From positions 744,001 through 808,000 of the forward strand of contig NZ_LR733817.1 in NCBI RefSeq assembly GCF_902506165.1: 64,000 bases of DNA, given 5' to 3'. The position numbers were made by a program, and so were the translations under genes. How positions within the stretch are numbered: position 1 is the first letter of the stretch; each line of letters starts with the position of its first letter. The stretch comes from Bosea sp. 29B. Lineage in GTDB: Bacteria; Pseudomonadota; Alphaproteobacteria; Rhizobiales; Beijerinckiaceae. Shown here piece by piece: positions 2,431-56,628 of the stretch. The notes under the pieces were generated by a model, which saw only the letters and a list, made by a program, of their open reading frames with translations, was not told the DNA's origin and searched no databases.

Positions 2431-3747
<1,317 letters not shown>

Positions 3748-7492: not shown

Positions 7493-7519
7493 GCCGTCGC
7501 GCGGGCACGGGGACTCGGC

Positions 7520-8698: not shown

Positions 8699-8701
8699 GC
8701 G

Positions 8702-12662: not shown

Positions 12663-12700
12663 GCGAGGCCCGGCTCAGAGTCTATTCGGGCGTTCTCTGA

Positions 12701-12816
12701 GCCCTCATCCTGAGGAGTCGCGAAGCGGCGCCTCGAAGGATGTTTCAGGAGGCTCCGGAACCAGCTGGAACATCCTTCGAGACGGAACCTGACGGCTGCT
12801 CCTCAGGATGAGGGCT
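12701..12816. repeat. 116-bp nested palindromic element
   Basis: The ends are a perfect 18-bp inverted repeat: AGCCCTCATCCTGAGGAG (12701-12718) and its complement at 12799-12816. Inside is a second perfect 13-bp pair, CTCGAAGGATGTT (12732-12744) and its complement at 12769-12781. The core CATCCTTCGAGACGG is shared with the 2321-2366 element. It lies between two convergent genes and looks like a miniature repeat family or REP-like element. Confidence 0.75.
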
Positions 12817-12834
12817 GAGTTTCCAGAAAGTCTC

Positions 12835-13233
12835 TCAGCGCCCGGGCCGGTGGGCGACGCATTTGATCTCGACCAAGAGGCCGGGATGGGCAAGCTCGGA
12901 GACGCCGATCCGCGTCCAGGCATAGCCTTCGCGCGGGACGAGGCGATTCTTGACCTCGCGGAACACATCCATGTGGCGCGCCATCCCGACATGGTAGGTG
13001 GTGACGTCGACCATGTCGGCGAAGCTGCAGCCGGCCGCCTCCAGCACGATCCGGACATTCTCCCAGGCAGCAGCGAACTGCTCCGCCGGGTCGTCGATCA
13101 CCTGAAGATCGGCGGTGCGGCCGACCTGGCCGACCACATAGACGATCTCGCCGACGCGCACGGCCGGCGCATAGCCGGCCCGCTCGACGATGGCACGCAT
13201 CGATTCCGGGACGATGATCTCGCGATCGGCCAT
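12835..13233 (-). CDS. RidA/YjgF-family protein
   Basis: A 132-residue protein of the RidA superfamily, whose best-known members hydrolyse reactive enamine/imine intermediates. The core VGEIVYVVGQVGRTADLQVI, the AAAWENVRIVLEAAGCSFADMVDVTTY helix, and the end PGLLVEIKCVAHRP fit the family, and the terminal EIKCVA corresponds to the usual IEIEAIA. The arginine normally expected before the terminal strand is not obvious, so this may be an Rid subfamily other than RidA. The start at 13233 is preceded by GAGAGGA; the longer reading from 13302 would run into a repeat element. It is the last gene of the leftward operon with the amidase, amidohydrolase and aconitase. Confidence 0.85.
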   Translation of the reverse strand: MADREIIVPESMRAIVERAGYAPAVRVGEIVYVVGQVGRTADLQVIDDPAEQFAAAWENVRIVLEAAGCSFADMVDVTTYHVGMARHMDVFREVKNRLVPREGYAWTRIGVSELAHPGLLVEIKCVAHRPGR

Positions 13234-13248
13234 AAGGGTCCTCTCAGG

Positions 13249-13352
13249 CGTCATGCTCGGGCCTGTCCCGAGCATCTCATGCCGAATGGGGCTCTGGAGC
13301 ACACTCGTCCAGAGATTCCCGGCTCTCCGCTGCGCTTCGGCCGAGAATGACG
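13249..13352. repeat. Palindromic repeat element of a second type
   Basis: Its ends, CGTCATGCTCGG (13249-13260) and CCGAGAATGACG (13341-13352), are inverted repeats with 11 of 12 matches. The left end folds by itself into a perfect 9-bp hairpin, ATGCTCGGG (13253-13261) and CCCGAGCAT (13267-13275). It lies between the isochorismatase-type gene and the RidA gene inside a probable operon. Confidence 0.65.
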
Positions 13353-13365
13353 TCTGGCGAAAGCC

Positions 13366-14097
13366 TCAGCCCTGCACGCCGGTCGGCAAATCGTCGCGAA
13401 CCGCAAGCCCGCCGAGATAATCCTTCACCTCGGCCGACGGAATCACGTCGGCATATTTGCAGTTGAGGTCGAACAGGTTGATCGCATGGCTCGCCTGGAA
13501 GCGGTCGAACGCCGTCTCCTCCGGGATCACCACCTTGAAATTATAGGAATAGGCGTCGACCGCCGTCGCCCGCAGGCAGCCCGAGGTGGTGCAGCCGGTC
13601 AGGATCAGCGTATCGACGTCGAAGAAGTTGAGATGGCTCATGAAGATGGTGCCGAAGAAGCAGGACGGCTTGCGCTTGCCGATGCGGATGTCCTGCGGGC
13701 GCGGCGCCAGCGGTGCGACCGTCTGGGTCGCATGCGTGCCTTCGGTCGAGGTCTTCTCGGCGCCGCGATGGTTCTTGCCGACCTGCACGCCGGAATCGAT
13801 CATGTCCGGCCGGCGGGCGCTCTCGGTGTAGAAGACCGGAATGTTCTTCTCGCGGGCCATCTCCAGCAGCGGCACGATGTGTTCGACCGCCGCCCAGGCT
13901 TCGGGGCCGCAATGGGTGCGGTACTGCTTGAGGCCTTCCAGGATGTCCTCCGGCTTGTCGCCGCAGAAATTGTACTGGACGTCGATGATGAACAGGGCCG
14001 GACGCTTGCCGAAGCCGCCGCGCTTGCCATAGCCGGCCTGCGCATAGACCTGCTTGTCGCGCTCGGTCAGGAAATCGTCCCAGATTCGCTTGGTCAT
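13366..14097 (-). CDS. Isochorismatase-family amidohydrolase, N-carbamoylsarcosine amidase/RutB-like
   Basis: A 243-residue cysteine hydrolase expected to cleave an amide or carbamoyl bond. The catalytic triad is visible: Asp39 in LFIIDVQYNF, Lys141 in IGKRKPSCFFGT, and Cys174 in GCTTSGCLRATAVDAY. The length and the N-terminal extension resemble N-carbamoylsarcosine amidase and maleamate amidase. It lies 18 bp downstream of a cyclic-amide hydrolase, the arrangement seen in ring-opening followed by amide-hydrolysis pathways, and is in the same operon as aconitase and RidA. Substrates to consider are N-carbamoyl amino acids, maleamate-like acids or cis-aconitamide. Confidence 0.85.
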   Translation of the reverse strand: MTKRIWDDFLTERDKQVYAQAGYGKRGGFGKRPALFIIDVQYNFCGDKPEDILEGLKQYRTHCGPEAWAAVEHIVPLLEMAREKNIPVFYTESARRPDMIDSGVQVGKNHRGAEKTSTEGTHATQTVAPLAPRPQDIRIGKRKPSCFFGTIFMSHLNFFDVDTLILTGCTTSGCLRATAVDAYSYNFKVVIPEETAFDRFQASHAINLFDLNCKYADVIPSAEVKDYLGGLAVRDDLPTGVQG

Positions 14098-14115
14098 CGT
14101 CTTCAGCTTTCGGTC

Positions 14116-15477
14116 TTAGGAGCGGTGCAGGTAGCGGCCGGCCGGCGTCGCGCGGGCCTGGGGATCGACAACGCCGTCGCTGGCGATGACGCGGCCGCGC
14201 AGGATGGTACGCACGGGCGCGCCCTTGAAGCGCATGCCCTCATAGGGCGAGTAGTCGGAGTGCGATTCCTGCGTCGCCGGATCGATCAGGACCTCCCTGT
14301 CCGGATCGACGACGACGAGGTCGGCATCCATGCCGACGGCGATACCGCCCTTGTTCGGGATCGAATAGAGCTTCGCGACATTGGCGCTGGTCGCAGCGGC
14401 GATCTGCTCGATCGGCAGGCCGCGCTTGTGCACGCCCTCATGGATCAGGACCGGCAGCAGCGTGCCGATGCCGGGAAAGCCGGCGCTGGCCTTCCAGATG
14501 TCCGGCCCCTTGGTCTCGCGCTTGCGCGGCACATGGTCGGAGCCGATGGTCGAGATCGTGCCGTCGCGCACGCCCTCCCACAGCGCCTCGACATCGTTTT
14601 CAGACCGTAGCGGCGGATTGACCTTGCCGAGGAAGCCGATCGGCGACTGGCTGGTCAGCGCAAGGTAATGGCTGCAGGTCTCGACATGGATCGGCGCGCG
14701 GCCGGGCCGCTTCGCCCGGCGCACGATCTCCAGACTCTCGGCGCTCGACATGTGCACGATATTGACCGGGCACCCGGCCTTCTCGCCGAAATAGATCACC
14801 CGGAAGACGTTCTCGGCCTCGAGGAAGCCGGGGCTCTGCTCGTCCCAGACGGGCAGGTCGTTGCGGCCGGCTTCCTTCAGCGGCTCGCGGAAGACCGGGA
14901 TGACCTCGACATTCTCGCAATGCACGCCGACGACGCCGCCCTTGATGCGCGCGCCCTGCAGCAGCGCCCGGTAGAGCAGGCCGTCATCGATCTCGGTGAA
15001 GCCCTTCGCCGCGCCCGAGGCGCCCTTGTACATCAGGTAGACCTTGATCGAGGTCACGCCGAAGCGCTCGGCGCATTCCGGCAGCGTCTCGATGTGCAGC
15101 TTGCTGGTGACGCCGAAATGGAAGCCGAAATCGATCAGCGACTGGCTCTCGCCGCGCTCCTTCCAAGGCCCGGTCGACTGGCGCAAATCGTTGGAGCGGT
15201 GGAAGGTCATCATCCCGGTGACGCCGCCAATGGCGGCCGAGCGCGATTCGGTCTCGAAATCGGTCTCGTTCGAGCCGAAGCCGATATGGGTGTGCGGGTC
15301 GATCAGCCCCGGCATCACCCATTTGCCGCGGCAGTCGATCACCTCCCTGGCGCTCGCCTGCTCGCCCGGCGCCAGCAGCGCGGCGATGCGCCCGTCCTTG
15401 ACCGCGACCGAGCCGGTGCGGACCCCGACGCCCGGGAAGACGATCTCGCCCCCCGCCAGCAAGAGATCGAAACTCAT
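14116..15477 (-). CDS. Dihydropyrimidinase/hydantoinase/dihydroorotase-type amidohydrolase
   Basis: A 453-residue binuclear metal amidohydrolase that opens cyclic amides. The metal ligands are all visible: His62 and His64 (PGLIDPHTHIGFG), Lys145 expected to be carbamylated (TSIKVYLMY), His186 (VGVHCENV), His242 (NIVHMSSAES) and Asp314 (TIGSDHVPR). SCSHYLALT-like CSHYLALT supports the family. The C-terminus SDYSPYEGMRFKGAPVRTILRG resembles dihydropyrimidinases and allantoinases. It overlaps the aconitase stop by 4 bp (ATGA), which indicates coupled translation with a tricarboxylate enzyme. That partnership is unusual and is the basis of a finding below. Confidence 0.9.
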   Translation of the reverse strand: MSFDLLLAGGEIVFPGVGVRTGSVAVKDGRIAALLAPGEQASAREVIDCRGKWVMPGLIDPHTHIGFGSNETDFETESRSAAIGGVTGMMTFHRSNDLRQSTGPWKERGESQSLIDFGFHFGVTSKLHIETLPECAERFGVTSIKVYLMYKGASGAAKGFTEIDDGLLYRALLQGARIKGGVVGVHCENVEVIPVFREPLKEAGRNDLPVWDEQSPGFLEAENVFRVIYFGEKAGCPVNIVHMSSAESLEIVRRAKRPGRAPIHVETCSHYLALTSQSPIGFLGKVNPPLRSENDVEALWEGVRDGTISTIGSDHVPRKRETKGPDIWKASAGFPGIGTLLPVLIHEGVHKRGLPIEQIAAATSANVAKLYSIPNKGGIAVGMDADLVVVDPDREVLIDPATQESHSDYSPYEGMRFKGAPVRTILRGRVIASDGVVDPQARATPAGRYLHRS

Positions 15478-18179
15478 GGATGCTCCGTGACCAGGGCTGG
15501 CGCGGCGCGCCGGATGAAGAAGGCAAGGACTTCGGCCATGATGCCGCCGGCCCGCAGGCAGGCACGCTCGCTCATGGTCGAAACATCGGCCGTGACCGAG
15601 AAGCGGATCGACCCAGAAGCGCCGGTGGCGGTGACCGTGGCCGAGCCGATGCCGTCGATCGCGGCCGACAACCCCTCGATATCCAAGCTCTCGCTGCCGT
15701 CGAGGCCGAGCTGGCGCCAGCCCTGCCCTTCCGCGAAGCGCAGCGGCACCACACCCATGCCGATCAGGTTGGAGCGGTGGATGCGCTCATAGCTCTCGGC
15801 GACGACGGCGCGCACGCCGAGCAGAGCCGAACCCTTGGCCGCCCAGTCGCGGCTGGAGCCCATGCCGTAGTCCTTGCCGCCCAGCACGACCAGCGGCACG
15901 CCGCGCTCGCCATAGGCGCTTGCCGCCTCATGGACGGAGACAACCTGGCCCTCCGGCTGCAGTTGCGTCCAGCCACCCTCGCGGCCGGGCACCATCTGGT
16001 TCTTGATCCGCAGATTGGCGAAGGTCGCGCGCGCCATCACCTCGTGATTGCAGCGCCGACCGACATAGGTGTTGAACGCTTTCGGCTCGATGCCGAGTCC
16101 GATCAGATAGCGCCCCGCCGGGCTGTCGACCGGAATCTCGCCGCTCGGCGAAATGTGGTCGGTGGTCAGCGAGTCGCCGTACACGCCGAGAACGCGCGCA
16201 CTATGCAGCGCCTCCGGTACGCCCTCGCGCGCTCGCTCGCGAGCGAGTTCCAGGAAGGGCGGCTCGACCAGATAGCTCGATTGCGGATTCCAGCCGAAGC
16301 GGAGCCCGGTCGGCGCGGCAAGCTCGTCCCAGAGCAGGCTGGAGGGCATATCGCCATAGACCTCGCGGAACAGGCGCGCATCGCCGGCACGTGCCGCCAA
16401 CGTGGCGATCTCGGCTTCGTCCGGCCAGAGATCGGCGAGGCGGATCGCCCTTTCCGCATCCGCGCCGTTGAGCGGCTCGCTTTCGAGATCGATGTCGATC
16501 CGCCCGGCCAGCGCGAAGGCGACGACCAGCGGCGGCGACATGATGTAGTTGGCCCGCACTTGGCGATGGATGCGGCCCTCGAAATTCCGATTGCCCGACA
16601 GCGCGGCGGCGGCAACCAGCCCGCCAGCATCGATCGCCTGCGCCATCACCGGCAGCAGCGGCCCCGACTTGCCGCCGCAGGTGGTGCAGCCATAGCCGAC
16701 CACGCCGAAGCCGAGCTGCTCCAGCGGCGCCAGCAGGCCGAGCTCGTCGAGATAGCGCGTCACCACGCGCGAGCCCGGCGCCAGCGAGGTCTTGACCCAG
16801 TCTGGGACCGTGAGCCCGGCAGCGACCGCATTGCGCGCCAGCAACCCGGCCGCGATCATCACCGCCGGGTTGGACGTGTTGGTGCAGGCGGTGATCGCCG
16901 CGATCGCCAGCGCGCCGTGCCGGAGCTCGGCTGAACCTGCTGGTGTCGAGACCGGAACGGCCGCGGCGGGGTCGGCGGCGAAACCGCCATCCGCCAGCGG
17001 TTGCGGTAGCCGGCCCACGAAATCCGTCGCGACTGCAGCAAGATCGAGCCGGTCCTGCGGGCGGCGCGGCCCGGCGACGCTACGACCGACCCTGGCGAGG
17101 TCGATCTCGACGACACGGGAATAAGCGGGGTCGGGCAGTCCGGGCTCGCGGAACATGGCATTGGCCCGCGCATAGGCCTCGACGAAGGCGACCTGCTCCG
17201 GCGAGCGCGTGCGGGCGAGATAGGCGATGGTCTGCGCGTCGATCGGGAAGAAGCCGGCGGTGGCGCCGTATTCCGGCGCCATATTGGCGAGCGTCGCCCT
17301 GGACGGCACCGACAGCGTCGCCGCGCCCGGCCCGAAATACTCGATCACAGTCGAAACGACACGCTCGCGCCGCAGCCGCTCGGTGACGGTGAGGACGAGG
17401 TCGGTGGTGGTCGCGCCGGCGGGCAGCGCCCCGACCAGCCTGACGCCGACGAATTCCGGCACTGGGAAGACATAGGGCTGGCCGAGCATCGCCGCCTGCG
17501 CCTCGATACCGCCGACGCCCCAGCCGAGCACGCCGATGCCATTGATCATCGGCGTGTGGGAATCGCCGCCGATGACGAAGTCCGCGCAGGCGATCTCACC
17601 GAGCGGCGTCGCGACCCGGGTGACGACCGGGGCGATGTGCTCCAGATTGACCTGATGGATGATGCCGGTGCCGGGCGGATAGACGCGGACGGAGCGAAAC
17701 GCCTGCTGCGCCCATTTCAGGAAGCTGTAGCGCTCGCCATTGCGCTCGAACTCGCGCGCCATGTTGCGCGCCATCGCATCGGGCGTGGCGGAGACGTCGA
17801 CCTGCAGGGAATGGTCGACGATGACGTCGACAGGAATGCGCGGCTCGACGCTGGCCGGATCGCAGCCGGCCTCGGCAACGGCGTCGCGCAGCGAAGCCAG
17901 GTCGAGCAGCACCGGCAGGCCGCTCGAATCCGGCAGGATGACGCGGCCGACGGTCAGCGGCACGCCGACGCCGTGGTTGTCGCGCCAACGCAGCATCGCC
18001 GCAACGGCGTCCGCACCGATATTGGGATCGCAGAGCCTGCCCCGTTCGAGATTCTCGACGAAGACGCGGCAGGCGTAGGGTAGCGTGGCGAGGCCTACGC
18101 CGGCACGCTCGGCCGCGCGGGCGACCGAGACATAAGCCCCGGCCGCGGCATCAGTTTTCAGGCTGTCATCGGACATCAT
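15474..18179 (-). CDS. Aconitase-family hydratase (AcnA-like), first copy
   Basis: An Fe-S hydro-lyase of the aconitase A type, about 901 residues, that isomerises citrate/isocitrate through cis-aconitate or acts on a related tricarboxylate. Cluster cysteines lie in TACTNTSNPAVM and in [39 protein letters not shown] is the substrate-binding block, and [19 protein letters not shown] is the swivel-domain active-site motif. The frame is open to 18392, but homology begins only after about residue 75 of that reading, so I place the start at 18179 (or 18176/18191). It begins the operon that continues into the amidohydrolase. A second aconitase is at 56629, so this copy is probably pathway-specific. 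Confidence 0.9.
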   Translation of the reverse strand: MMSDDSLKTDAAAGAYVSVARAAERAGVGLATLPYACRVFVENLERGRLCDPNIGADAVAAMLRWRDNHGVGVPLTVGRVILPDSSGLPVLLDLASLRDAVAEAGCDPASVEPRIPVDVIVDHSLQVDVSATPDAMARNMAREFERNGERYSFLKWAQQAFRSVRVYPPGTGIIHQVNLEHIAPVVTRVATPLGEIACADFVIGGDSHTPMINGIGVLGWGVGGIEAQAAMLGQPYVFPVPEFVGVRLVGALPAGATTTDLVLTVTERLRRERVVSTVIEYFGPGAATLSVPSRATLANMAPEYGATAGFFPIDAQTIAYLARTRSPEQVAFVEAYARANAMFREPGLPDPAYSRVVEIDLARVGRSVAGPRRPQDRLDLAAVATDFVGRLPQPLADGGFAADPAAAVPVSTPAGSAELRHGALAIAAITACTNTSNPAVMIAAGLLARNAVAAGLTVPDWVKTSLAPGSRVVTRYLDELGLLAPLEQLGFGVVGYGCTTCGGKSGPLLPVMAQAIDAGGLVAAAALSGNRNFEGRIHRQVRANYIMSPPLVVAFALAGRIDIDLESEPLNGADAERAIRLADLWPDEAEIATLAARAGDARLFREVYGDMPSSLLWDELAAPTGLRFGWNPQSSYLVEPPFLELARERAREGVPEALHSARVLGVYGDSLTTDHISPSGEIPVDSPAGRYLIGLGIEPKAFNTYVGRRCNHEVMARATFANLRIKNQMVPGREGGWTQLQPEGQVVSVHEAASAYGERGVPLVVLGGKDYGMGSSRDWAAKGSALLGVRAVVAESYERIHRSNLIGMGVVPLRFAEGQGWRQLGLDGSESLDIEGLSAAIDGIGSATVTATGASGSIRFSVTADVSTMSERACLRAGGIMAEVLAFFIRRAAPALVTEHP

Positions 18180-18191
18180 GACGCCGGCCAT

Positions 18192-18420
18192 TCCGCGGCT
18201 CGCATCGTTCAACACGCCCGGAAAATGCGAGGAGGGCCAATTAATGTCAACACTTTCAGAAAAGTATTTTTCTACAGACATTTTGATTTTCGACTGGCCG
18301 GCAGCTAAATCAAAGTCGCGGTATTTACGGGACCGGTCGTGCGAGGTCCTGCTTGCGGGCTTCCAGCGAGCACTCTTCAAAACTGTTGACACATTTTTGA
18401 GCCGCTCCTAACGTTCACGC
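18192..18420. promoter_or_regulatory. Divergent control region with two TGTTGACA boxes and a promoter for the FCD regulator
   Basis: The 8-mer TGTTGACA is at 18384-18391 on the plus strand, and on the minus strand at 18245-18252 (TGTCAACA). TGT-TG-ACA is the half-site spacing seen for FCD-type GntR proteins. In the plus direction TTGACA (18386-18391), 17 bp, TAACGT (18409-18414) form a promoter whose start point would be at or near the ATG at 18421, which suggests a leaderless message. In the minus direction a TTGACA from the other box precedes a weak -10 (CATTTT at 18222-18227) reading to the aconitase gene. Confidence 0.6.
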
Positions 18421-19119
18421 ATGGACCTGCAGGAACCGGCAACCGGCGAACGGCGCCCCGAGACGCTCGGCGAAGGGATCTTCGGCCGCATTCTCGAGCT
18501 GATCTACAGCACCGAGCTCGCCCCCGGCATGGTCGTCAACGAATCCGTGCTGGCCACGCGCTTCGGTGTCAGCCGCGGGCCGGTCCGCGAGGCCATCCGC
18601 CGTCTCCAGGGCATCCAGCTCGTCTCGCGCGAGCCCTTCCTGCGGGCGCGCGTCGTCTCCCTGTCCGCCCAGGCGATCCTGGAGCTCTTCCAGATGCGCG
18701 AGGCGCTCGAAGGCTACGCCTGCCGCCTCGCCGCCCAGCGGATGAGCGAGACCGAGATCGATGCGTTGATCGCCGATCTCGAAGCCGCCCATTCCGGGCG
18801 CCAGCCGGAAGGCGCGCACTTCGACTTCCACGAGCGGGTCGTCCGCGCCAGCGGCAACAGCCGCATCATCGATAGCCTTTGCGGCGATCTCTACCACCTG
18901 CTGCGCATCTACCGGCGCATCTCCGGCGCCGTGCCGGAGCGCAAGGAACTCGCCTTCACCGAGCACTGGCAGATCCTGCGCGCCATCAAGATGCGCGATG
19001 GCGCCCTCGCCGAATCCCTGATGCGCTCGCATGTCGAGCGCGCCGGCCGCCATGTGCTGGCCCAGGTTCCCGAAACCCCATCCATTGCTGCCGCCGATGC
19101 GGAGAAACGAGCATCATGA
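18421..19119 (+). CDS. GntR-family regulator, FCD type
   Basis: A 232-residue regulator. The winged helix lies at residues 15-85 (LAPGMVVNESVLATRFGVSR, then GPVREAIRRLQ). An all-helical FCD ligand domain follows, with the metal-type residues DFHERVVRASGN, FTEHWQILRAIKMRD and SLMRSHVERAGRH. FCD regulators commonly sense organic acids such as dicarboxylates, aldonates or tricarboxylates. It opens a rightward operon with the PrpB-like lyase (ATGA overlap), a flavoprotein and a LysR gene. The four TGTTGACA boxes in the two nearby control regions are the likely binding sites, which would make it autoregulatory and a regulator of the aconitase and transport operons. Confidence 0.88.
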   Translation: MDLQEPATGERRPETLGEGIFGRILELIYSTELAPGMVVNESVLATRFGVSRGPVREAIRRLQGIQLVSREPFLRARVVSLSAQAILELFQMREALEGYACRLAAQRMSETEIDALIADLEAAHSGRQPEGAHFDFHERVVRASGNSRIIDSLCGDLYHLLRIYRRISGAVPERKELAFTEHWQILRAIKMRDGALAESLMRSHVERAGRHVLAQVPETPSIAAADAEKRAS

Positions 19120-20066
19120 TCGCCAGACGCGAGATTTCGGCTCCGGCCGCCTTCCGGGCCCTGCTCAATTCCGGCGAGTTCCTGGTCTCGCCCGGCGTCT
19201 ATGACGGCTACAGCGCCCGCCTGGTCGAGGCCGCCGGCTTCAAGAGCGCCTGCACCAGCGGCGCCGCCATCGCCAACTCGATCCTCGGCGTCGAGGATCT
19301 CGGCATGATGGGGCTGAACGAGAACGTCAATCACTGCCGCCAGCTCGCCCGCTCGATCGCGATCCCGCTGACCTGCGACGCCGACAACGGCTACGGCAAC
19401 CCGATGAACGTGCACTACACCGTGCAAATGTTCGAGGAGGCGGGCGTCGCCGGCGTCAACCTGGAAGACCAGGTCAGCCCGAAGCGCTGCGGCCACATGC
19501 CGGGCAAGGAGGTCGTCTCCAAGGAGGAGATGGTCAAGAAGATCGAGGCCGCCTGCCTCGCCCGCCGCGACGACGATTTCGTCATCATCGCCCGCACCGA
19601 CGCCCTCGCGGTCGAGGGCATCGACGCGACGCTGGAGCGCATCCGCGCCTATGTCGCCGCCGGCGCCGACGCGATCTTCCCCGACGCCGTCAAGACCGAG
19701 GACCAGATCGCCCGTGTCGTCGAGGCGGCCGGCGGCAAGCCAGTCTCGATCAATATGGGTTTCGGTATCCGCCCGCGCCCGACCACGCCGCTGATCCCGC
19801 TGCCGCGCCTCAAGGAGCTCGGCGTGCGCCGCATCAGCCTGCCGCGCATGCTGCCGGCCGCCGCGATCAAGGCGATGCAGGAGGCGCTCTCGGTGATGCG
19901 CGGCGTGATGGAAACCGGCATCCCGGCTGATCGCTCCGACCTGCTGGTCGGCATCGAGGAGATCTGGAACCTGATGGGCTTCCCGGCCATGCAGGCGCTG
20001 GAGAAGCAGCTCCTCACCACCGACCATTACGAGACCAAGTACAAGGCGACGGCGAAGGCTTCCTGA
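19116..20066 (+). CDS. Isocitrate lyase/PEP mutase superfamily lyase, PrpB (2-methylisocitrate lyase)-like
   Basis: A 316-residue TIM-barrel lyase of the ICL/PEP mutase superfamily. LTCDADNGYG carries the metal-binding aspartates. KRCGHMPGKEVVSKEEMV holds the catalytic Cys125 in the KRCGH motif of isocitrate and methylisocitrate lyases. FVIIARTDALAVEGIDATLER is nearly identical in pattern to PrpB. Such enzymes cleave a 2-hydroxy-tricarboxylate into succinate (or analogue) plus a 2-oxoacid. No PrpC or other methylcitrate-cycle gene is present, so the substrate may be isocitrate-like. The ATG overlaps the regulator's stop by 4 bp, and the next gene starts 13 bp later. Confidence 0.87.
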   Translation: MIARREISAPAAFRALLNSGEFLVSPGVYDGYSARLVEAAGFKSACTSGAAIANSILGVEDLGMMGLNENVNHCRQLARSIAIPLTCDADNGYGNPMNVHYTVQMFEEAGVAGVNLEDQVSPKRCGHMPGKEVVSKEEMVKKIEAACLARRDDDFVIIARTDALAVEGIDATLERIRAYVAAGADAIFPDAVKTEDQIARVVEAAGGKPVSINMGFGIRPRPTTPLIPLPRLKELGVRRISLPRMLPAAAIKAMQEALSVMRGVMETGIPADRSDLLVGIEEIWNLMGFPAMQALEKQLLTTDHYETKYKATAKAS

Positions 20067-20079
20067 GGCGGGGCCGGCC

Positions 20080-21465: not shown

Positions 21466-21481
21466 AGCGCAGGCGCAGCCG

Positions 21482-22408
21482 ATGGACCTCAGGGCGCTGC
21501 GCTATTTCCGGACGGTCGCAGAATGCGGCAGCTTCAGCCGCGCCTCGGAGATGCTGCGCATCTCGCAGCCCGCCGTAAGCCGCACCATCCGCGAACTGGA
21601 GGCCGAGCTCGGCAAGGAACTGCTTGAACGTGGCCGCGACGGCGCCCGGCTGACCGAGGCCGGCCGCATCCTGTTCGAGCACTCCGCTCAGCTCCTGCGC
21701 CAGGTCGAGCAGGCCGCCAGCGACGTTCGCCGCGGCTCGGCCGCCCTGACCGGCCGCCTCACCATCGGCATGCCGCCGGGCGTCGGCCATCTCTTGGCGC
21801 CGCCTCTGCTCGCCCGCTTCAGCGCCGCGCATGAGCAGGTCGAGGTCAAGATCGTGGGCGGCTTTTCGAGCCAGCTGCACGACCTGCTCGCCCGTCGCCA
21901 GCTCGATCTCGCCTTCGCCCATGATCCGCTGCCGCAGCGCGGCCTCAGGGTTACGCCCCTGCTGCGCGAGGAGGTCTTCGTCGTCGGGCTCCCTGGCAGC
22001 CTCGGCGATGGCATCGGCGAATTGCCGTCGGCCGAGATCGTCAAGCTGCCGCTGATCCTGCCGAGCCGGCCGAACGCCTCACGCCGACTGCTCGACGCCT
22101 GGGCCGCGCGTGAGGGCCTGTGGGTCGATGCCCGCTACGAGGTCGACGACCACGTCATCACCAGCGGGCTGGTCAGGCGCGGCCTCGGCGTCAGCCTGAT
22201 GACGCGCGCCACCCTTGCCGCCGGCATGCTCGCCGGGGAGATCGACATCCGCCCGATCGCGCCGCGCGCCTATTGGCCGCTGGCGCTGGTCGAGCTCGAT
22301 TTGCCCTCACCCTCGACCATCGCGACCGAGTTCGCCCGCATCGCACTCGGGATCATACGCGAGATGACCGAGCAGGGAGGCTGGCCCGGCGCGATCGGGC
22401 CGGAGTGA
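21482..22408 (+). CDS. LysR-family transcriptional regulator
   Basis: A 308-residue LysR protein. MDLRALRYFRTVAECGSFSRASEMLRISQPAVSRTIRELEAEL is the N-terminal winged helix, followed by GRLTIGMPPGVGHLLAPPLL, the start of the periplasmic-binding-like effector domain. The effector should be a small acid. The start at ATG 21482 follows the flavoprotein stop by 16 bp, so it is the fourth gene of the FCD operon. Because LysR proteins usually control the neighbour upstream or divergent, the adjacent flavoprotein or the leftward SDR/LLM operon is a likely target. Confidence 0.9.
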   Translation: MDLRALRYFRTVAECGSFSRASEMLRISQPAVSRTIRELEAELGKELLERGRDGARLTEAGRILFEHSAQLLRQVEQAASDVRRGSAALTGRLTIGMPPGVGHLLAPPLLARFSAAHEQVEVKIVGGFSSQLHDLLARRQLDLAFAHDPLPQRGLRVTPLLREEVFVVGLPGSLGDGIGELPSAEIVKLPLILPSRPNASRRLLDAWAAREGLWVDARYEVDDHVITSGLVRRGLGVSLMTRATLAAGMLAGEIDIRPIAPRAYWPLALVELDLPSPSTIATEFARIALGIIREMTEQGGWPGAIGPE

Positions 22409-22415
22409 AAAGCTT

Positions 22416-23135
22416 CTAGCCCGGCGCCACCAGCGAGGCCCCACCGCAGACATAAAGCGTCTGGCCGGTGATCGCCCCGGCCTCCGGCGCCAGCAGGCAC
22501 TGCACGAGATAGGCGACCTCGTCCGGCGCAATCAGCCGGCCGATCGGCAGCGAGACGGACGGCGCCTCGCCGCGGCTGGGGTCGCGCAGCATCGGCGTGT
22601 CGGTCGCGGCCGGCGCCACGACATTGACGGTGATGCCGCGCGGCGCCAGCTCCAGTGCCAGGCTGCGGGCAAGGCCGTGCAGCGCCGCCTTGGTCGCGGC
22701 ATAGGCGCCGCGCCCCGGCCGACCGAGCGCACCGCGGCTCGACAGCAGCACGATGCGGCCGCGCCCCTCGGGCAAGGCCGGCGCGAGTTCGCGCAGGATG
22801 GCGATGGCGGCACCGACATGCAGCCGCCAGAGCATCTCGACATCCTCGTCGCGGATCTCGGTGATGCGCCCGGTCCGCATCACCCCGGCGCAGTGCACGA
22901 AGGCGTCCGGCCGCTCCGCCAGGATCTCCGGCAGGACACCTGCCAGAGCTGATGCATCGAGCAGGTCGAGCGGGATCGTGCGCAGGCCGGCAGCCTCCGC
23001 CTCAGTCGGCGCCGGCTGGCGGTCGAACCCGGTGACGCGCCAGCCTGCCGCAAGCAGGCGCTGCGCCAGCGCAAGACCGATCCCGGACGAGCTGCCGGTG
23101 ATCAGAGCATGGCGGGGTGTCACCACCTCAGCCAT
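22416..23135 (-). CDS. Short-chain dehydrogenase/reductase
   Basis: A classical SDR of 239 residues from the ATG at 23135. HALITGSSSGIGLALAQRLL is the glycine motif, VHCAGVM is the NNAG-type motif, IVLLSSRGALG supplies the catalytic serine, and GAYAATKAALHG is the YxxxK pair. QTLYVCGGASLVAPG at the end is typical. The start overlaps the LLM monooxygenase stop by 8 bp (ATGGCTGA), which supports ATG 23135 over the longer reading from 23165. It probably oxidises or reduces a hydroxyl/keto intermediate of the LLM reaction. It is the last gene of a three-gene leftward operon. Confidence 0.88.
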   Translation of the reverse strand: MAEVVTPRHALITGSSSGIGLALAQRLLAAGWRVTGFDRQPAPTEAEAAGLRTIPLDLLDASALAGVLPEILAERPDAFVHCAGVMRTGRITEIRDEDVEMLWRLHVGAAIAILRELAPALPEGRGRIVLLSSRGALGRPGRGAYAATKAALHGLARSLALELAPRGITVNVVAPAATDTPMLRDPSRGEAPSVSLPIGRLIAPDEVAYLVQCLLAPEAGAITGQTLYVCGGASLVAPG

Positions 23136-24183
23136 AAGCCGGCTCCGGCTGCATCGCCCCAGCATCGATGACGAGCCGCTCGCGCAGCAGCGGGACGACC
23201 TTGTCCGCGAAGTTCGCGAGCCCCTCCGCCATCGGGTGGAAGCGCAGCATCAGGCAATCGACGCCGATGCGCTGATAGGTCTCGATCCGTTGCGCCAGCA
23301 GCTCCGGCGTGCCGACGAGGCCGGCGCCGAGCCCGCGCGCCGCCACCGCCGCGATCCGGCTGCGCTTGCCATAGTCCAGCATCTCCTCGGCCTGGGCATG
23401 GGCATCGTCCAACGTATCGGCGCAGATCACATGCGCGCTGAGGCCGATCCCGAGCTCGCGGCCATGACCGGCGGCAAGCGCCTTCATCTCCGCGATCTCC
23501 TGCGTCATCACCGCGAGATTATCGTCGTAGAGCCGATAGTCGGGCACGTAATCGGCGAACCAGACATCGCAGCTTTCCGCCACCAGCGCCTTGCCCTCTG
23601 GCGAGCGGCTGGCGGCATAGATCGGCGGCGGCGAGCGGCGCACCTTCAGGGGCAGGCTCGCCTTGTCGACCGTGTAATAGCGGCCGCTGAACGAGAACGC
23701 ATCTTGCGTCCACAGGCCGCGCAGCACCCGGACGAACTCGCCGAGGCGCGCGGCGCGATCGGCGCTGCTCTCCAGCCAGCCGCCATTGCCGAACAGATTG
23801 AGCTCGTCCGGCCACCAGCCATTGACCAAGTTGATCGCGAAGCGCCCGCCGCTGATCCGGTCGAGCGAGGCGCCCATCTTGGCCACGGCCTGCGGCGTGA
23901 CGATGCCGGGGTGAGCCGCGACCATCAACTCCATCCGCCGCGTGCGCTGCGACAGCGCCGAGGCCATCACCCAGGATTCGAGGTCGGGCCCGAGCCAGCG
24001 CTCGGCGATCAGCGAGATCGAGAAGCCGGCCTCCTCGGCCTGCTGCAGGATGCGCGCGGCGAACTCGAAGGAGGTATCGGCCAACCCGCCGGCGCCGGCC
24101 GTGCCGAGTTCGGCGATCGCGCGCTCCATCTCGGGTTCGGCCCGGATGGTGTGGGGCAAGGGAGCCCAGATTCCCAGTCTCAT
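23128..24183 (-). CDS. LLM-class flavin-dependent monooxygenase, SsuD/RutA-like
   Basis: A 351-residue bacterial luciferase-like monooxygenase that should use FMNH2 supplied by a separate reductase. RMELMVAAHPGIVTPQAVAKM, then RFAINLVNGWWPDE, and later RRSPPPIYAASRSPEGKALVAE match the SsuD/RutA group, which opens sulfonate, pyrimidine or related bonds with O2. The upstream gene (24-kb position) encodes a matching FMN reductase with a 4-bp stop/start overlap, a classic two-component pair. The substrate is unknown; in this locus a sulfonated or nitrogen-ring carboxylate is plausible. An SDR follows in the same operon. Confidence 0.87.
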   Translation of the reverse strand: MRLGIWAPLPHTIRAEPEMERAIAELGTAGAGGLADTSFEFAARILQQAEEAGFSISLIAERWLGPDLESWVMASALSQRTRRMELMVAAHPGIVTPQAVAKMGASLDRISGGRFAINLVNGWWPDELNLFGNGGWLESSADRAARLGEFVRVLRGLWTQDAFSFSGRYYTVDKASLPLKVRRSPPPIYAASRSPEGKALVAESCDVWFADYVPDYRLYDDNLAVMTQEIAEMKALAAGHGRELGIGLSAHVICADTLDDAHAQAEEMLDYGKRSRIAAVAARGLGAGLVGTPELLAQRIETYQRIGVDCLMLRFHPMAEGLANFADKVVPLLRERLVIDAGAMQPEPAYG

Positions 24184-24929
24184 GGCCTGCTCTCAGTTGG
24201 CACGAAGGTCGTGGCACGTTGCACGGAGGCCAGTCCGACCAGCGCCGCCGCCTGCCTTTGGGCGAAGGTGAGGACCTGCTCGCCGACGCGGACGAGATCG
24301 GCAGCGACCACCGGGTCGTGGCAGGTTCCGCCTGCGAACAGTCCGGGCGTGGTGCGGATCGTCGCGCCATAGGGCGTCGGCCAGCCGCGCAGGGCATGCG
24401 CGATCGTCCGCAGCGTCGCCAGCGTCTGGCCGGCGGCCTGCGAGCCGGCGGCGCAGGCGATCAGCCCGATAGGCACGCCGTCGAGATAGGGCCGCGCCTC
24501 CCCCGAGAGCTCTTCGGCATAGTCGAGCGCGTTCTTGATCAGGCCGGAGACACTGCCGTGATAGGCCGGGCTCGCGATGATCAGCCCGTCGCAATGCATC
24601 AGCGCCGAGACCAGCGCTGCAGCACCCGCATCGCGGCTCGCGACGCCCGGCTGGTAGAGCGGCAGCAGCAGGTCGCGCCCGGCGAAGATGCGGATCTCGG
24701 CTTCGTCCCCGATCGCCTCGCAGGCATGGCGCAAGGCGAGTTCGGTCGAGGATTGCTCACGGGGCGTGCCGCCGATGCCGACGATCAGCGGCTTGACGGC
24801 GGGTGTTCCGGCGGGAGGGGACGTGGCCAGCATGGTCTCCGCTCGAACAGGACAGATCGGCATCACGAAACCGGGTTGGCGAGCTGACGTCCAAGGCCGT
24901 TTCGTCATCGCCCCATAAGCGGATTGCAT
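24180..24929 (-). CDS. NADPH-dependent FMN reductase, SsuE-like
   Basis: A flavodoxin-fold reductase providing FMNH2 to the LLM monooxygenase. PLIVGIGGTPREQSSTELALRH begins the flavin site, LIIASPAYHGSVSGLIKNALDY is the family signature, and PIGLIACAAGSQAAGQTLATLR follows. Two starts are possible. ATG 24929 has a strong Shine-Dalgarno (GGAGG six bases upstream) just below a TGTTGACA box, and adds a 32-residue N-terminal extension; ATG 24833 gives a 217-residue protein closer to the usual length. I use 24929 because of the ribosome site. It is the first gene of the operon. Confidence 0.85.
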   Translation of the reverse strand: MQSAYGAMTKRPWTSARQPGFVMPICPVRAETMLATSPPAGTPAVKPLIVGIGGTPREQSSTELALRHACEAIGDEAEIRIFAGRDLLLPLYQPGVASRDAGAAALVSALMHCDGLIIASPAYHGSVSGLIKNALDYAEELSGEARPYLDGVPIGLIACAAGSQAAGQTLATLRTIAHALRGWPTPYGATIRTTPGLFAGGTCHDPVVAADLVRVGEQVLTFAQRQAAALVGLASVQRATTFVPTESRP

Positions 24930-25231
24930 GCAGCCTCCATCAATACTGTTGACACTAATCACTACCAGCCCGCTCAACCTCCAACGCGCAGCGTCCGTGG
25001 ATCGCATTGGCTTCAGCGAGGAATGGCCGCGCGACAACGTCGGGTTGCGACTTCTCTTGCCCGCAGTGACTTGACCGGCTGCCTTTTGAAATAAATGCCG
25101 AAATATGCGCCAGCCGGCGCAGCAAGAAGTGTTGACATTTTTTTGCATACAGCAAAGGCTCAGGCATCGCGCCTGGCCCGGGCACCTTGCCCGCCACGCG
25201 CCGATCAGGGCGGAACGAAGGAAGAAGACCG
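24930..25231. promoter_or_regulatory. Divergent control region of the FMN-reductase and TctCBA operons with two TGTTGACA boxes
   Basis: The 302-bp gap has no gene. TGTTGACA is present at 24947-24954 and at 25130-25137. Both lie on the plus strand; flanking bases are similar in all four boxes of the locus (A followed by C or G before the box, C or T after it). The box at 24947 is 18-25 bp upstream of the FMN-reductase start and would overlap its promoter. The other is about 100 bp upstream of the tctC start. Confidence 0.55.
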
Positions 25232-26215: not shown

Positions 26216-26697
26216 CCGGAAAGACGAACGGCCTGGCCGAGACCCTGCGACCGCGCCTCGGCGCGGTCGTCGGCATCATCTGCGGCCTGATCGGCACCTT
26301 CGCCTCGCTGCAATTACCGCTCGGCACGAGCCGATTGCTCGGCCCCGGCGCGGTGCCGCTGCTGCTCTCCCTGGCGATGACCGGCCTGAGCCTCGCGCTG
26401 CTCCTCAAGCCGGGTGCGGACGAGACCGACGCGGATGAGGACGATGGCGGCCTGCACGGCGCGGCGATGGTCGCGCTCGTCGCGCTGATGATCGGCGCCT
26501 TCGCGCTGCTGCTGACAAGCCTCGGCTTCATCGTCGCCGGCACCGCGCTGATGTACGGCCTCTATGCCATCGGCGAGGAGAAACTGGTCTCGGCCAAAGC
26601 CCTGGTCCGGGCCGTGCTGACCGCCCTCGCCGCCTATCTGCTCTTCGTCGTCGCGCTCTCGGTCAACATGCCGGCCGGCTCGCTCTGGGGTTACTGA
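26212..26697 (+). CDS. tctB: Tripartite tricarboxylate transporter small membrane subunit (TctB)
   Basis: A 161-residue membrane protein with about four hydrophobic segments (LGAVVGIICGLIGTFASLQL, PLLLSLAMTGLSLALLL, MVALVALMIGAFALLL, VLTALAAYLLFVVALSV). This is the DUF1468/TctB pattern. The start is GTG at 26212, sharing GTGA with the stop of TctC; upstream in-frame codons overlap TctC and are not coding. The stop at 26695-26697 overlaps the TctA ATG by one base. Confidence 0.83.
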   Translation: MTGKTNGLAETLRPRLGAVVGIICGLIGTFASLQLPLGTSRLLGPGAVPLLLSLAMTGLSLALLLKPGADETDADEDDGGLHGAAMVALVALMIGAFALLLTSLGFIVAGTALMYGLYAIGEEKLVSAKALVRAVLTALAAYLLFVVALSVNMPAGSLWGY

Positions 26698-28196
26698 TGG
26701 AAGGCTTGCTCGGAGGGTTCATCGTCGCCCTGAAGCCGATGAACCTGGTCTTCTGCTTCGGCGGCGCGCTGATCGGCACGCTGATCGGCGTCCTGCCCGG
26801 GCTCGGGCCGACGGCGGCGATCGCGATGCTGCTGCCGCTAACCATCGGGCTCGACCCGGTCTCGGCGATCATCATGATCGCCGGCATCTATTACGGCGCC
26901 AGCTATGGCGGCTCGACCACGGCGATCCTCGTCAAGATACCCGGCGAGGCCCAGAGCGTCGTCACCTGCCTCGACGGCTACAAGATGGCGCAGCAGGGCC
27001 GCGCCGGCAGCGCCATCGCCATCGCCGCGATCGGCTCCTTCGTCGCCGGCACGGTCGGCGCGCTCGCCATCGGCCTGATCAGCATGCCGCTGGTCGAGTT
27101 CGCCATCCGCTTCGGGCCGGCCGAGAACCTGTCGCTGCTGCTGCTCGGCTTCATCGTCATCCTGGTCCTGGCCAAGGGCAATGTCGTCAAGTCGCTGATC
27201 ATGATCGCCGCCGGCCTGCTGCTCGCCATGGTCGGGCAGGACGTCATCACCGGCCAGCCGCGCTTCACCCTCGGCATCCCCGAGCTGACCGACGGCTTCG
27301 GCGTCGTCGTCGTCGCCATGGGCATCTTCGGCCTGGGCGAGGTCTTCGAGAACGTCGAGAAGTTCCGCACCCGCTCGATGCAGGCGGTGCCCGTCGGCAG
27401 CCTGATGCCGACCAAGGAGGACTGGAAGCGCTCGGCCATGCCGATCGCCCGCGGCTCGGTGCTCGGCTTCCTGATCGGCCTCTTGCCGGGCGGCGGAGCG
27501 ACGCTCGCCTCCTTCATCTCCTATGGCGTCGAGAAGAAGTTCACGAAGCACCCGGAGGAGTTCGGCAACGGCGCGGTCGAGGGCGTCGCCGGGCCGGAAG
27601 CCGCCAACAATGCCGGCGCGGCCGGCTCCTTCATCCCGCTGCTAGCGCTCGGCCTGCCCGGCAACCCCGTCACGGCCCTGCTGCTCGGCGCCCTGATCGT
27701 CCACAACGTCACGCCCGGCCCGCTGATGATCCAGGAGCGGCCGGAGATCTTCTGGGGCGTGATCGCCTCGATGTATGTCGGCAACGTCATGCTGGTGCTG
27801 CTCAACCTGCCGCTGATCGGCATCTGGGTGCAGCTCCTGAAGGTGCCCTACCGCGCACTCTACGCCGCGCTGATCCTGTTCATGATCATCGGCGCCTATT
27901 CGCTCAACAACAACCCGGTCGAGGTCCTGCTCCTGCTGCTGTTCGGCGTGCTCGGCTACGGCCTGCGCAAGCTGCGCTTCGATACCGCGCCGCTGATCCT
28001 CGCCTTCGTGCTCGGCGGGCCGATCGAGTTCAACCTGCGCCAGACCATGATGCTGGCGCGCGATCCGCTCGACTATCTGATGGGCCGGCCGATCGCTTTG
28101 ACCATCCTGGCCTTCGGCCTGCTGCTGATCGTGCTGCCGATGTTCTCGAAAGTCCGCCAGAAGCTGATGGTGGCGCGGGCGGTCAATGAGCTCTGA
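26697..28196 (+). CDS. tctA: Tripartite tricarboxylate transporter large membrane subunit (TctA)
   Basis: A 499-residue permease with about 11-12 hydrophobic segments and the TctA core LIGTLIGVLPGLGPTAAIAMLLPLTIGLDPVSAI. The second repeat holds FLIGLLPGGGATLASFISY and EAANNAGAAGSFIPLLALGLPG, as in typical TctA. It uses the ion gradient to import the carboxylate delivered by TctC. The ATG follows TctB immediately (TGATG). Confidence 0.93.
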   Translation: MEGLLGGFIVALKPMNLVFCFGGALIGTLIGVLPGLGPTAAIAMLLPLTIGLDPVSAIIMIAGIYYGASYGGSTTAILVKIPGEAQSVVTCLDGYKMAQQGRAGSAIAIAAIGSFVAGTVGALAIGLISMPLVEFAIRFGPAENLSLLLLGFIVILVLAKGNVVKSLIMIAAGLLLAMVGQDVITGQPRFTLGIPELTDGFGVVVVAMGIFGLGEVFENVEKFRTRSMQAVPVGSLMPTKEDWKRSAMPIARGSVLGFLIGLLPGGGATLASFISYGVEKKFTKHPEEFGNGAVEGVAGPEAANNAGAAGSFIPLLALGLPGNPVTALLLGALIVHNVTPGPLMIQERPEIFWGVIASMYVGNVMLVLLNLPLIGIWVQLLKVPYRALYAALILFMIIGAYSLNNNPVEVLLLLLFGVLGYGLRKLRFDTAPLILAFVLGGPIEFNLRQTMMLARDPLDYLMGRPIALTILAFGLLLIVLPMFSKVRQKLMVARAVNEL

Positions 28197-28626
28197 CGCG
28201 ATCCTCTCCCCTGCCCTCGCGGCCGAGCGCCATGACGGGCCACAGGCCCTCGCGCTCCGCTATCTCGCCGCAATGGAGCGGCGCGATCTCGATGCCGCCC
28301 GTGGCTTCGTCATTGCGAATGCCGAGTTCATCTTCCCCGGCGGCGCAAGGCACAGCGATCTTTCCGCGATCGTCGCCGGCTCGTCCGGCCGCTATCGCAG
28401 CATCGCCAAGCATGTCGAGCGCTGCGACCTCTGCGAGCGAGTGGACGGGGCGGCGATCGTCTACGTCCTCGGCAGCCTCTATGGCCAATGGCCTGATGGC
28501 AGCGCCTTCTCCGGCATCCGCTTCGTCGACCGCTTCGAGATTTCCAGCGGATTGATCCGGCGCCAGGAAGTCTGGAACGACAGCGGCGAGACACGGCTGG
28601 CCGCACAGATCCCGAGTCCCTGCTGA
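28186..28626 (+). CDS. SnoaL/NTF2-like domain protein
   Basis: A 146-residue protein with an NTF2-like alpha+beta pattern: LALRYLAAMERRDLDAARGFV as helix 1, FIFPGGARHSDLSAIV, and a C-terminal strand series ending IRFVDRFEISSGLIRRQEVWND. Such folds can be isomerases, dehydratases or binding subunits. The start overlaps the end of TctA by 11 bp, so it belongs to the transporter operon and probably acts on the imported compound. The catalytic role is not predictable. Confidence 0.75.
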   Translation: MSSDAILSPALAAERHDGPQALALRYLAAMERRDLDAARGFVIANAEFIFPGGARHSDLSAIVAGSSGRYRSIAKHVERCDLCERVDGAAIVYVLGSLYGQWPDGSAFSGIRFVDRFEISSGLIRRQEVWNDSGETRLAAQIPSPC

Positions 28627-28691: not shown

Positions 28692-28853
28692 GATGATGTC
28701 GCCTGTCGGTAGATGTGGCCACCAGACAGGGCCGAGCCAAGGCGACTGCGGCAGATTTGCAACAAATTATTTTATCTAGAGATGTGAACGGCTGTTCATT
28801 GCCTCCTGCCCTTACCCGCCTAAGCCTGTGCCGCGGTTGGGTTGGGCATTCTC

Positions 28854-55554: not shown

Positions 55555-55623
55555 GATGCGCTCCCTCCGGCCGACGAAGCCGCCGACGAGAGCATCTACC
55601 CGAGGCAGGCGGCGATTCGAAGC

Positions 55624-56580: not shown

Positions 56581-56628
56581 GGACTTTCCTCCGTTTGTGG
56601 TCTGGTGTGGTCGAGACGCAAGGCGCCG

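Follow-up and report, generated by a model that had tools for sequence, protein, structure and literature searches.

A putative cyclic imide catabolic module, linked to hemC, in the genome of Bosea sp. 29B

The genome of Bosea sp. 29B (6.33 Mb, 7 contigs) carries a catabolic locus at positions 12835 to 28626 of a 64,000-nucleotide stretch of contig NZ_LR733817.1 (positions 744,001 to 808,000; hereinafter referred to as the window), and the question raised by this locus is which substrate its enzymes act on. A sequence-only reading had proposed that several entry reactions feed cis-aconitate, which would be hydrated to isocitrate and then cleaved. Profile matches, alignments and related loci pointed instead to a module that breaks down a cyclic imide (either a maleimide with substituents or a lactam oxidized to one), an interpretation that we hold with moderate confidence. 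Gene families were assigned by Pfam and NCBIfam profile matches, and score pairs are given as bits/cut-off.

All genes named in the sequence-only reading were found in the locus: a gene for an AcnA-type Fe-S hydratase with a CGGK motif (15474..18191, - strand), a PrpB-like lyase (19116..20066, +), an FAD_binding_2 flavoprotein (20080..21465, +) with a neighboring LysR regulator (21482..22408, +), a luciferase-like monooxygenase (LLM; 23128..24159, -; SfnG/SsuD-like, below the cut-offs) with its partner NADPH-dependent FMN reductase (24180..24833, -), the tripartite transporter TctC (25232-26215, +), TctB (26212-26697, +) and TctA (26697-28196, +), and a SnoaL/NTF2-like protein (28186..28626, +; Pfam 23.9 bits, under the cut-off of 27). 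That gene list omitted four genes within the same span, encoding a RidA-family protein (12835..13233, -; Ribonuc_L-PSP, 80 bits), an isochorismatase-fold amidohydrolase (13366..14097, -), a hydantoinase/dihydroorotase-type cyclic amidohydrolase (14116..15477, -) and a short-chain dehydrogenase/reductase (SDR; 22416..23135, -). The hydantoinase and isochorismatase genes are the most telling of the span. A GntR/FCD regulator gene (18421..19119, +) lies between the hydratase and lyase genes. The four operons described earlier correspond to four divergent units, as judged from gene direction and spacing rather than from transcripts.

A flavoprotein-based search of genome contigs yielded twenty loci, in which the flavoprotein is thus present by construction. 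Genes for the aconitase, hydantoinase, isochorismatase, GntR regulator, lyase and flavoprotein (hereafter the core) occurred together in the fetched stretch of 16 of these loci, and the gene set is conserved beyond chance. One further locus (L020) contained four of the six core genes, with the other two a few kb outside the stretch, as seen in L067, which overlaps or repeats L020 and was counted once where distinct loci are stated. Calidifontibacillus (L027) had three of the six (flavoprotein, isochorismatase and hydantoinase) plus LeuCD. In L018 and L022 the flavoprotein gene stood without the rest of the core in the fetched stretch, and in the L022 genome the aconitase-hydantoinase-isochorismatase part was located on a different contig. 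The nearest named relatives are Bosea, and the closest loci are referred to as Bosea-type; the six closest (L009-L014) include Bosea lupini LMG 26383 (L009), 'Rhizobiales bacterium 2SD' (L010) and a metagenome-assembled genome called Methylobacterium (L013). Outside the Bosea-type loci the isochorismatase gene was the most conserved (79-88% identity in ten loci: L015-L017, L019, L021, L023-L026 and L028). Among the bait-found loci, relatives of the LysR regulator at E<=1e-10 were restricted to the Bosea-type ones. Relatives of the SnoaL-like protein adjoined the core in L015, L017, L023, L028, L059, L067 and L076.

With the isochorismatase as query, plasmid-borne clusters were found in Shinella, Antarctobacter (from a diatom culture), Methylobacterium nodulans, Variovorax and Haloarchaea. 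The hydantoinase-isochorismatase pair, usually with the flavoprotein, is the steadiest part of the clusters and recurs in Bosea, Betaproteobacteria, Calidifontibacillus and Haloarchaea. In M. nodulans the pair was accompanied by the flavoprotein, a PrpB-like lyase, MmgE/PrpD and a Liv ABC transporter, and in Variovorax by the flavoprotein, MmgE/PrpD and a GTP-binding protein. Three Haloarchaeal plasmids (Haloferax, Natrinema and Halorubrum) encoded, by the product names of their records, the pair, the flavoprotein, LeuCD, a CoA-transferase and 3-hydroxy-3-methylglutaryl-CoA (HMG-CoA) lyase; the Haloferax flavoprotein, isochorismatase and hydantoinase were 41, 40 and 35% identical to those of the window, respectively. 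LLM and FMN reductase genes were seen in Bosea-type loci, an LLM gene (55% identical) adjoined by a 61% identical SDR copy was present in Antarctobacter (L076), and LLM appeared by record name in Haloferax and Halorubrum. In class- and phylum-wide genome screens orthologues were few (385 genomes, 26 at E<=1e-40, 2 at >60% identity), and a second wide screen returned at E<=1e-85 a single genome of 398, the source genome itself; relatives in the protein database were plentiful (1891 at E<=1e-60).

Two further clusters were observed beside these. A Hydrogenophaga plasmid (L161, 9547-13597) carried CobW, amidohydrolase, isochorismatase and PrpB genes with TctC genes and no annotated flavoprotein or aconitase, and looks like a related, smaller pathway. 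A paralogous cluster of an alphaproteobacterium (L061, 3531-12836) contained MmgE/PrpD, a PrpB-like lyase (38%), an isochorismatase (45%), a CobW-like GTPase (by eye) and a hydantoinase (41%).

The hydantoinase-type protein missed the TIGR02033 equivalog (289.9/393.25), and its closest solved relative was an L-hydantoinase. Its HxH, Lys, His, His and Asp motifs (HTH, KVYLMYKG, VHCEN, NIVHMSS and SDHVP), which we take to supply the metal ligands, were kept. For the isochorismatase-fold protein, the nearest structures were N-carbamoylsarcosine amidohydrolase (111 bits) and 4l07/4l08 (91 and 87 bits), the latter presumably maleamate amidase. The Asp, Lys and Cys positions (FIIDVQ, IGKRKPS and TSGC), presumed to be the catalytic triad of isochorismatase-fold amidohydrolases, were kept in all aligned rows that reached them; the L021 row ended early.

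The hydratase passed the AcnA equivalog (1039.7/945), missed the AcnD equivalog (756.2/1419.85, and 755.6 bits in a second scan) and aligned with all three Fe-S cysteines. All 22 cluster rows, from 21 distinct loci, read C-[GAS]-G-K after the third cysteine, and none of 18 non-cluster AcnA-family rows had the Lys (9 CIGN, 5 CNGM, 1 CGGN, 1 CAGA and 2 CGGG); CIGN is the ordinary AcnA reading, and the CNGM rows were five AcnD proteins over the family cut-off. Because the other two AcnA-type proteins of the source genome read CIGN, one of them encoded inside the window, the CGGK copy is probably specialized. Loss of the residue corresponding to R580 of mitochondrial aconitase, in a column that we take to be that of IRP1 R699, was considered as proof against cis-aconitate and dropped, since another AcnA-type protein of the source genome (L002), used as a control, has His and AcnD has Met at this position. 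According to an excerpt of one report, an R-to-K change at such a site in Aco1p/Aco2p of yeast moves the activity away from aconitate and towards homoaconitate (PMC3556520). In the LeuCD-type versions the LeuD specificity loop was mixed (RFIVSSD in Haloferax, KYTKTLN in Calidifontibacillus).

The second AcnA-type gene of the window (56629-59046, CIGN; 48% identical to the CGGK aconitase of the main locus) belongs to a separate small cluster (54652-59046) with a TctC-type binding protein and a GntR/FCD regulator. On the Shinella plasmid (L077, 7463-11553), upstream of the core, another AcnA-type gene with CVGA adjoined MmgE/PrpD and perhaps encodes a further specialized hydratase. Many aconitase-superfamily matches per genome were found in G385, G387, G388, G389, G390, G392, G395 and G761 (in G389 the AcnD model matched as many as 17 places), and the third-cysteine motifs of AcnA-type proteins aligned from those genomes varied (CIGN, CNGM, CGGN, CAGA and CGGG). 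As far as such alignments indicate, the residues after the third cysteine may be a handy marker of specificity.

The PrpB-like lyase is of the phosphoenolpyruvate (PEP) mutase/isocitrate lyase (ICL) type. Both PrpB models were missed (243/354.4 and 221.8/353), and the protein was nearly as close to 2,3-dimethylmalate lyase (3fa3, 161.8 bits) as to the best PrpB (180.3). A loop reading NMGFGIRxRPT was present in 13 of 13 aligned rows, five near-identical rows having been left out; the related L061 lyase lacks it.

The flavoprotein, previously described as TcuA-like, missed both TcuA models (134/369 and 74.4/372.55). In a single pairwise alignment with Fcc3 fumarate reductase, R402, H504 and R544, which we take to be the carboxylate-binding Arg/His ligands, were replaced by Y, F and Y, respectively, and E378/R381 by W/V. 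The motifs GYS, FHTQGG and GYxSGNGL were constant in 15 aligned rows and in Haloferax (six near-identical rows left out). Since these constant motifs replace the ligand sites, the substrate of the flavoprotein is more likely an uncharged ring than a di- or tricarboxylate.

The shared regulatory boxes reported earlier were corroborated. Octamers TGTTGACA/TGTCAACA/TGTTAACA occurred four times in the 64 kb window, whereas 20 random sequences that kept its dinucleotide steps had 0.25 on average. All four (shared box TGTTGACA at 18245..18252 on the - strand, and at 18384..18391, 24947..24954 and 25130..25137 on the + strand) sit between divergent units of the main locus, and the same four-box layout was found in the six Bosea-type loci L009-L014. 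In all 19 related loci tested (18 distinct), the 450 bases preceding the aconitase gene contained at least one box, and 13 of the 17 loci with both genes had the GntR/FCD gene as the divergent neighbor of acn. It is likely, judging from this arrangement, that the GntR/FCD protein reads the TGTTGACA boxes.

The proposed pathway would proceed as follows. The substrate would be imported by TctCBA, and its ring would be oxidized to an unsaturated imide by LLM/FMN reductase, SDR and the flavoprotein, a candidate ring dehydrogenase. The hydantoinase-type enzyme would open the imide ring to a half-amide (a substituted maleamate), from which the isochorismatase-type amidase would release ammonia to give a substituted maleate. 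The AcnA-type Fe-S enzyme would hydrate this maleate to a substituted malate, and the PEP-mutase/ICL-type lyase would cleave the malate to a 2-oxoacid and a carboxylic acid. The GntR regulator, acting at the TGTTGACA boxes, would control all four units. Each reaction, their order, the regulator role and the substrate are what we infer, the reactions from family chemistry. Full clusters, whose gene content is what this sequence of reactions would require, contained either the AcnA-like hydratase and the PrpB-like lyase or LeuCD, CoA-transferase and HMG-CoA lyase. Whereas AcnA and LeuCD are members of a single superfamily, the two lyase systems are unrelated. Hydration followed by C-C cleavage is suggested because two hydratase subfamilies and two unrelated lyase systems fill the same slots.

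Several observations count against the imide interpretation. The M. nodulans stretch lacks an annotated aconitase-family gene, that of Variovorax lacks annotated hydratase and lyase genes, and L027 gave no relative of the window lyase. For the flavoprotein, no match above 90 bits was seen in the stretches from Shinella and Antarctobacter, and the two genera were not among the matches listed (30 of 33 records) in a plasmid search with the flavoprotein. In the L018 genome, no isochorismatase match was found at E<=1e-30, and the flavoprotein stands there alone. The Haloferax LLM had no BLAST similarity to that of the window at E<=1e-5. MmgE/PrpD and CobW, present in several relatives (MmgE/PrpD confirmed in L022, L026, L027, L059 and L061, CobW in L026), are absent from the Bosea locus. 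The ligand losses of the flavoprotein come from the one alignment described above, its position in the reaction order is a guess, and a hydantoinase with a carbamoylase would suit a hydantoin or ureido compound equally. The unfilled hydratase and lyase slots and the missing flavoproteins lower our confidence in the imide interpretation; MmgE/PrpD may do part of the work in L027, M. nodulans and Variovorax.

The closest known counterpart of the last two steps is the tail of nicotinate fermentation in Eubacterium barkeri, in which dimethylmaleate hydratase (DmdAB) is followed by 2,3-dimethylmalate lyase. Both systems would share hydration of a substituted maleate by an aconitase-superfamily enzyme and cleavage by an ICL-family enzyme, but E. 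barkeri is an anaerobe that loses nitrogen via other enzymes and uses a LeuCD-type hydratase, whereas here nitrogen removal would fall to the hydantoinase and isochorismatase, and the hydratase of the Proteobacteria is of the AcnA type. Cyclic imide metabolism involves an imidase and a half-amidase, and we know of no dedicated hydratase/lyase pair or GntR-box regulon associated with it. Imide ring opening and subsequent amide hydrolysis would likewise be shared with fungal nicotinate breakdown, which, in the excerpted text of one study, employs the imidase HxnM and the amide hydrolase HxnN (PMC9304392). HxnM differs, by the same excerpt, in being structurally closest to a peptidoglycan-deacetylase-like protein rather than to hydantoinase, and in that the product is hydroxyglutaramate (PMC9304392). 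The Rut pyrimidine pathway draws on the same superfamilies (LLM monooxygenase, isochorismatase, RidA and flavin reductase), but the three Rut equivalogs that gave matches were missed (RutA 91.3/498.3, RutB 33.9/377.95 and RutC 34.3/169.1) and it includes neither hydantoinase nor a hydratase/lyase pair. Enzyme superfamilies are also shared with TcuA/TcuB and with the 2-methylcitrate cycle (AcnD and PrpB), but the TcuA, AcnD and PrpB cut-offs were all missed here.

These data gave no support to the convergence on cis-aconitate. An aconitase-type hydratase feeding an ICL/PrpB-type lyase remains a sound reading of the two genes, but not so the route through cis-aconitate and isocitrate: the TcuA and PrpB models were missed by wide margins, the hydratase carries the C-[GAS]-G-K motif, the hydantoinase and isochorismatase belong to the core, and the Haloarchaeal version with LeuCD, CoA-transferase and HMG-CoA lyase does not suit an isocitrate route. 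The same points make it highly improbable that tricarballylate and related acids are converted to cis-aconitate by a TcuA-like enzyme, to isocitrate by aconitase and then cleaved by the lyase. TctCBA, an FAD_binding_2 flavoprotein with weak TcuA similarity and the passed AcnA model would agree with such a route, but no TcuB-like family match was found among the locus genes given to Pfam/NCBIfam, and the hydantoinase and isochorismatase would be left unexplained, neither being needed, to our knowledge, in tricarballylate or methylcitrate catabolism. The hub would be rescued if citrazinate of the isonicotinate route were opened by the hydantoinase to cis-aconitamide and converted to cis-aconitate, to be hydrated and cleaved. 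The last steps of the isonicotinate pathway, known from older work, match the hydantoinase, amidase and hydratase types. This route is nevertheless very unlikely: no molybdenum hydroxylase was detected among those window and neighboring genes that were run against Pfam (a subset), the housekeeping aconitase would make a separate set for isocitrate cleavage redundant, the Haloarchaeal version ends in HMG-CoA lyase, and searches of the open-licence literature on citrazinate/isonicotinate listed nothing relevant.

Two other substrate classes were weighed. Opening of a hydantoin or ureido ring to an N-carbamoyl compound, removal of the carbamoyl group by the isochorismatase and handling of the released acid by the other enzymes would fit the nearest solved relatives, namely hydantoinases and N-carbamoylsarcosine amidohydrolase; such a pathway yields amino acids, however, with no call for a hydratase/lyase pair, and no amino-acid-processing gene was found in the conserved core, which renders it unlikely. 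A hydroxypyridine, degraded in the manner of nicotinate or nicotine with the FAD monooxygenase, the AMDase-like protein (both encoded upstream of the core, see below) and the amidase as counterparts of HspB/NicC, maleate isomerase and maleamate amidase, is a still less likely substrate. The monooxygenase is indeed nearest to PnpA and HspB and the isochorismatase resembles maleamate amidase, but the genes run against Pfam included no ring-cleaving dioxygenase, a monooxygenase of at least 48% identity was found in 6 of the 20 genomes or records searched, and the hydantoinase would be unneeded.

The cyclic imide interpretation leaves the substrate itself to be considered, and the genes upstream of the core bear on it. 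Outward from the core, these encode an AMDase/Asp-Glu-racemase-fold protein (11925..12662, +; Pfam Amdase 62.5/25.9, below both NCBIfam equivalogs) and the FAD_binding_3 monooxygenase (10732..11916, +), then a polyamine-type ABC transporter (binding protein, two permeases and ATPase; 6524..10644, +), an aldehyde dehydrogenase (4728..6278, -), a GntR/UTRA regulator (3978..4706, +) with a presumed role in this upstream module, a HemL-like class III aminotransferase (2431..3738, -; below the HemL equivalog, 322.2/527.3) and HemC (hydroxymethylbilane synthase/porphobilinogen deaminase; 1352..2296, +; frame open from 1226, first ATG at 1352). In Verticiella (L068), genes for an aldehyde dehydrogenase, a regulator, a monooxygenase and an AMDase-like protein lie beside the core, the regulator being 42% identical to that of the window and adjoining the aldehyde dehydrogenase gene; no aminotransferase match was found there. 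The Shinella plasmid carries aldehyde dehydrogenase, monooxygenase, AMDase-like, aminotransferase and hemC genes beside the core. The aldehyde dehydrogenase copies in Shinella and Verticiella were 72-73% identical to that of the window, and the window aminotransferase was 58% identical to the Shinella plasmid gene adjoining hemC.

HemC matched TIGR00212 (302.5/164), was the sole HemC match in the source genome and kept the motifs HSLKDLP, RRRAQ and GAGCSLPVG, which we take to include the catalytic Asp motif and the cofactor Cys of a working hydroxymethylbilane synthase. The idea that it is a dedicated catabolic enzyme was set aside on these grounds; as the sole copy with intact motifs, it presumably also serves heme synthesis. 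HemC adjoined the aminotransferase in all eight core-bearing Bosea-type genomes (G000, G755, G756, G757, G758, G759, G760 and G786; G766, G768, G798 and G800 were taken as repeats of four of them) and was the sole copy in six. In a search of 24 genomes or records for the aminotransferase at E<=1e-70, matches of at least 58% identity came from the seven Bosea-type genomes and the Shinella record, and all other matches were at most 43% identical. Among 40 other genomes of the genus, five carry the core isochorismatase; HemC loci were fetched from 24 of the 35 coreless ones, and none had the aminotransferase beside HemC (L147 had a 31% identical one). In several other fetched genomes HemC adjoined, by eye, a TsaD-like gene, unlike the catabolic-cluster edge seen here.

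In the tree, the cluster HemCs formed one supported clade (95/86) inside a Bosea-type group to which a long branch leads. The second HemC of G760 fell in the ordinary Bosea clade and that of G758 in the other alphaproteobacterial group; the Shinella plasmid hemC also fell in this other group, on a long branch and with its exact place unsure. If this last placement holds, the HemC-aminotransferase pairing arose twice, or hemC was swapped in place. Of 72,556 plasmid records, 77 (some as large as chromosomes) had a hemC match at E<=1e-30. The aminotransferase matched two records at E<=1e-100, both of them hemC-bearing Shinella plasmids identical in length that probably represent one event. The link between HemC and the core is not general, because in the 11 other core genomes in which both genes were located (G096, G385-G390 and G392-G395) the single HemC lies on a contig different from that of the isochorismatase, and in the Bosea ancestor it could have arisen by chance. 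The only substrate of HemC known to us is porphobilinogen, for which reason its adjacency is the best pointer to the substrate class, to be taken as a hint.

On this basis, we consider it a tentative and somewhat doubtful possibility that the cluster consumes tetrapyrrole-derived monopyrroles, its substrates being porphobilinogen or other tetrapyrrole-derived pyrroles and maleimides. The upstream module of the Bosea-type genomes and of Shinella would then turn porphobilinogen into a maleimide: the aminotransferase would convert the amine to an aldehyde and the aldehyde dehydrogenase would yield a pyrrole carboxylate, the HspB-like monooxygenase would perform ipso-hydroxylation, the AMDase-like protein would perhaps decarboxylate the acetate arm, and LLM and SDR would form the imide (the Shinella stretch showed no LLM). 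For heme synthesis, HemC would tap the same porphobilinogen. Hematinic-acid-like maleimides, which are end products of chlorophyll and heme, would be turned by the core into maleates, malates and then central metabolites, for example 2-oxoglutarate or pyruvate plus a short acid, and organisms with the core only would use imported maleimides. Chlorophyll turnover is put at 10^12 kg a year in an excerpt of one article (PMC7318184). Within that excerpt hematinic acid, a maleimide and chlorophyll product, is reported in leaves and other maleimides are not (PMC7318184).

If the tetrapyrrole proposal were true, genes would for the first time be available for the final bacterial stage of chlorophyll and heme breakdown; among the papers listed by a search on bacterial hematinic acid use, no title or abstract start mentioned such a gene. 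Nor was such a pathway described in titles and abstract starts of the open-licence papers listed by searches on imides, dimethylmaleate, citrazinate/isonicotinate, porphobilinogen catabolism and the gene combination. Judged on those papers, the module is most suitably classed as a variant of imide/substituted-maleate catabolism that has yet to be described. With a pair, usually joined by a distinctive flavoprotein, common to Archaea and Bacteria and an exchangeable hydratase and lyase, it looks like a widespread catabolic module, whose genes are easily misnamed as aconitase, methylisocitrate lyase, tricarballylate dehydrogenase and nicotinamidase-related amidase.

Two further features flank the cluster. 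Directly downstream, a very long Gly/Thr-repeat frame (28842-33182) appeared autotransporter-like by eye, and a 32% identical stretch was located near the cluster in L012. Between the AMDase-like and RidA genes (12700-12820), an imperfect inverted repeat, ctcatcctgagga... / ...tcctcaggatgag, looks like a dispersed palindromic element.

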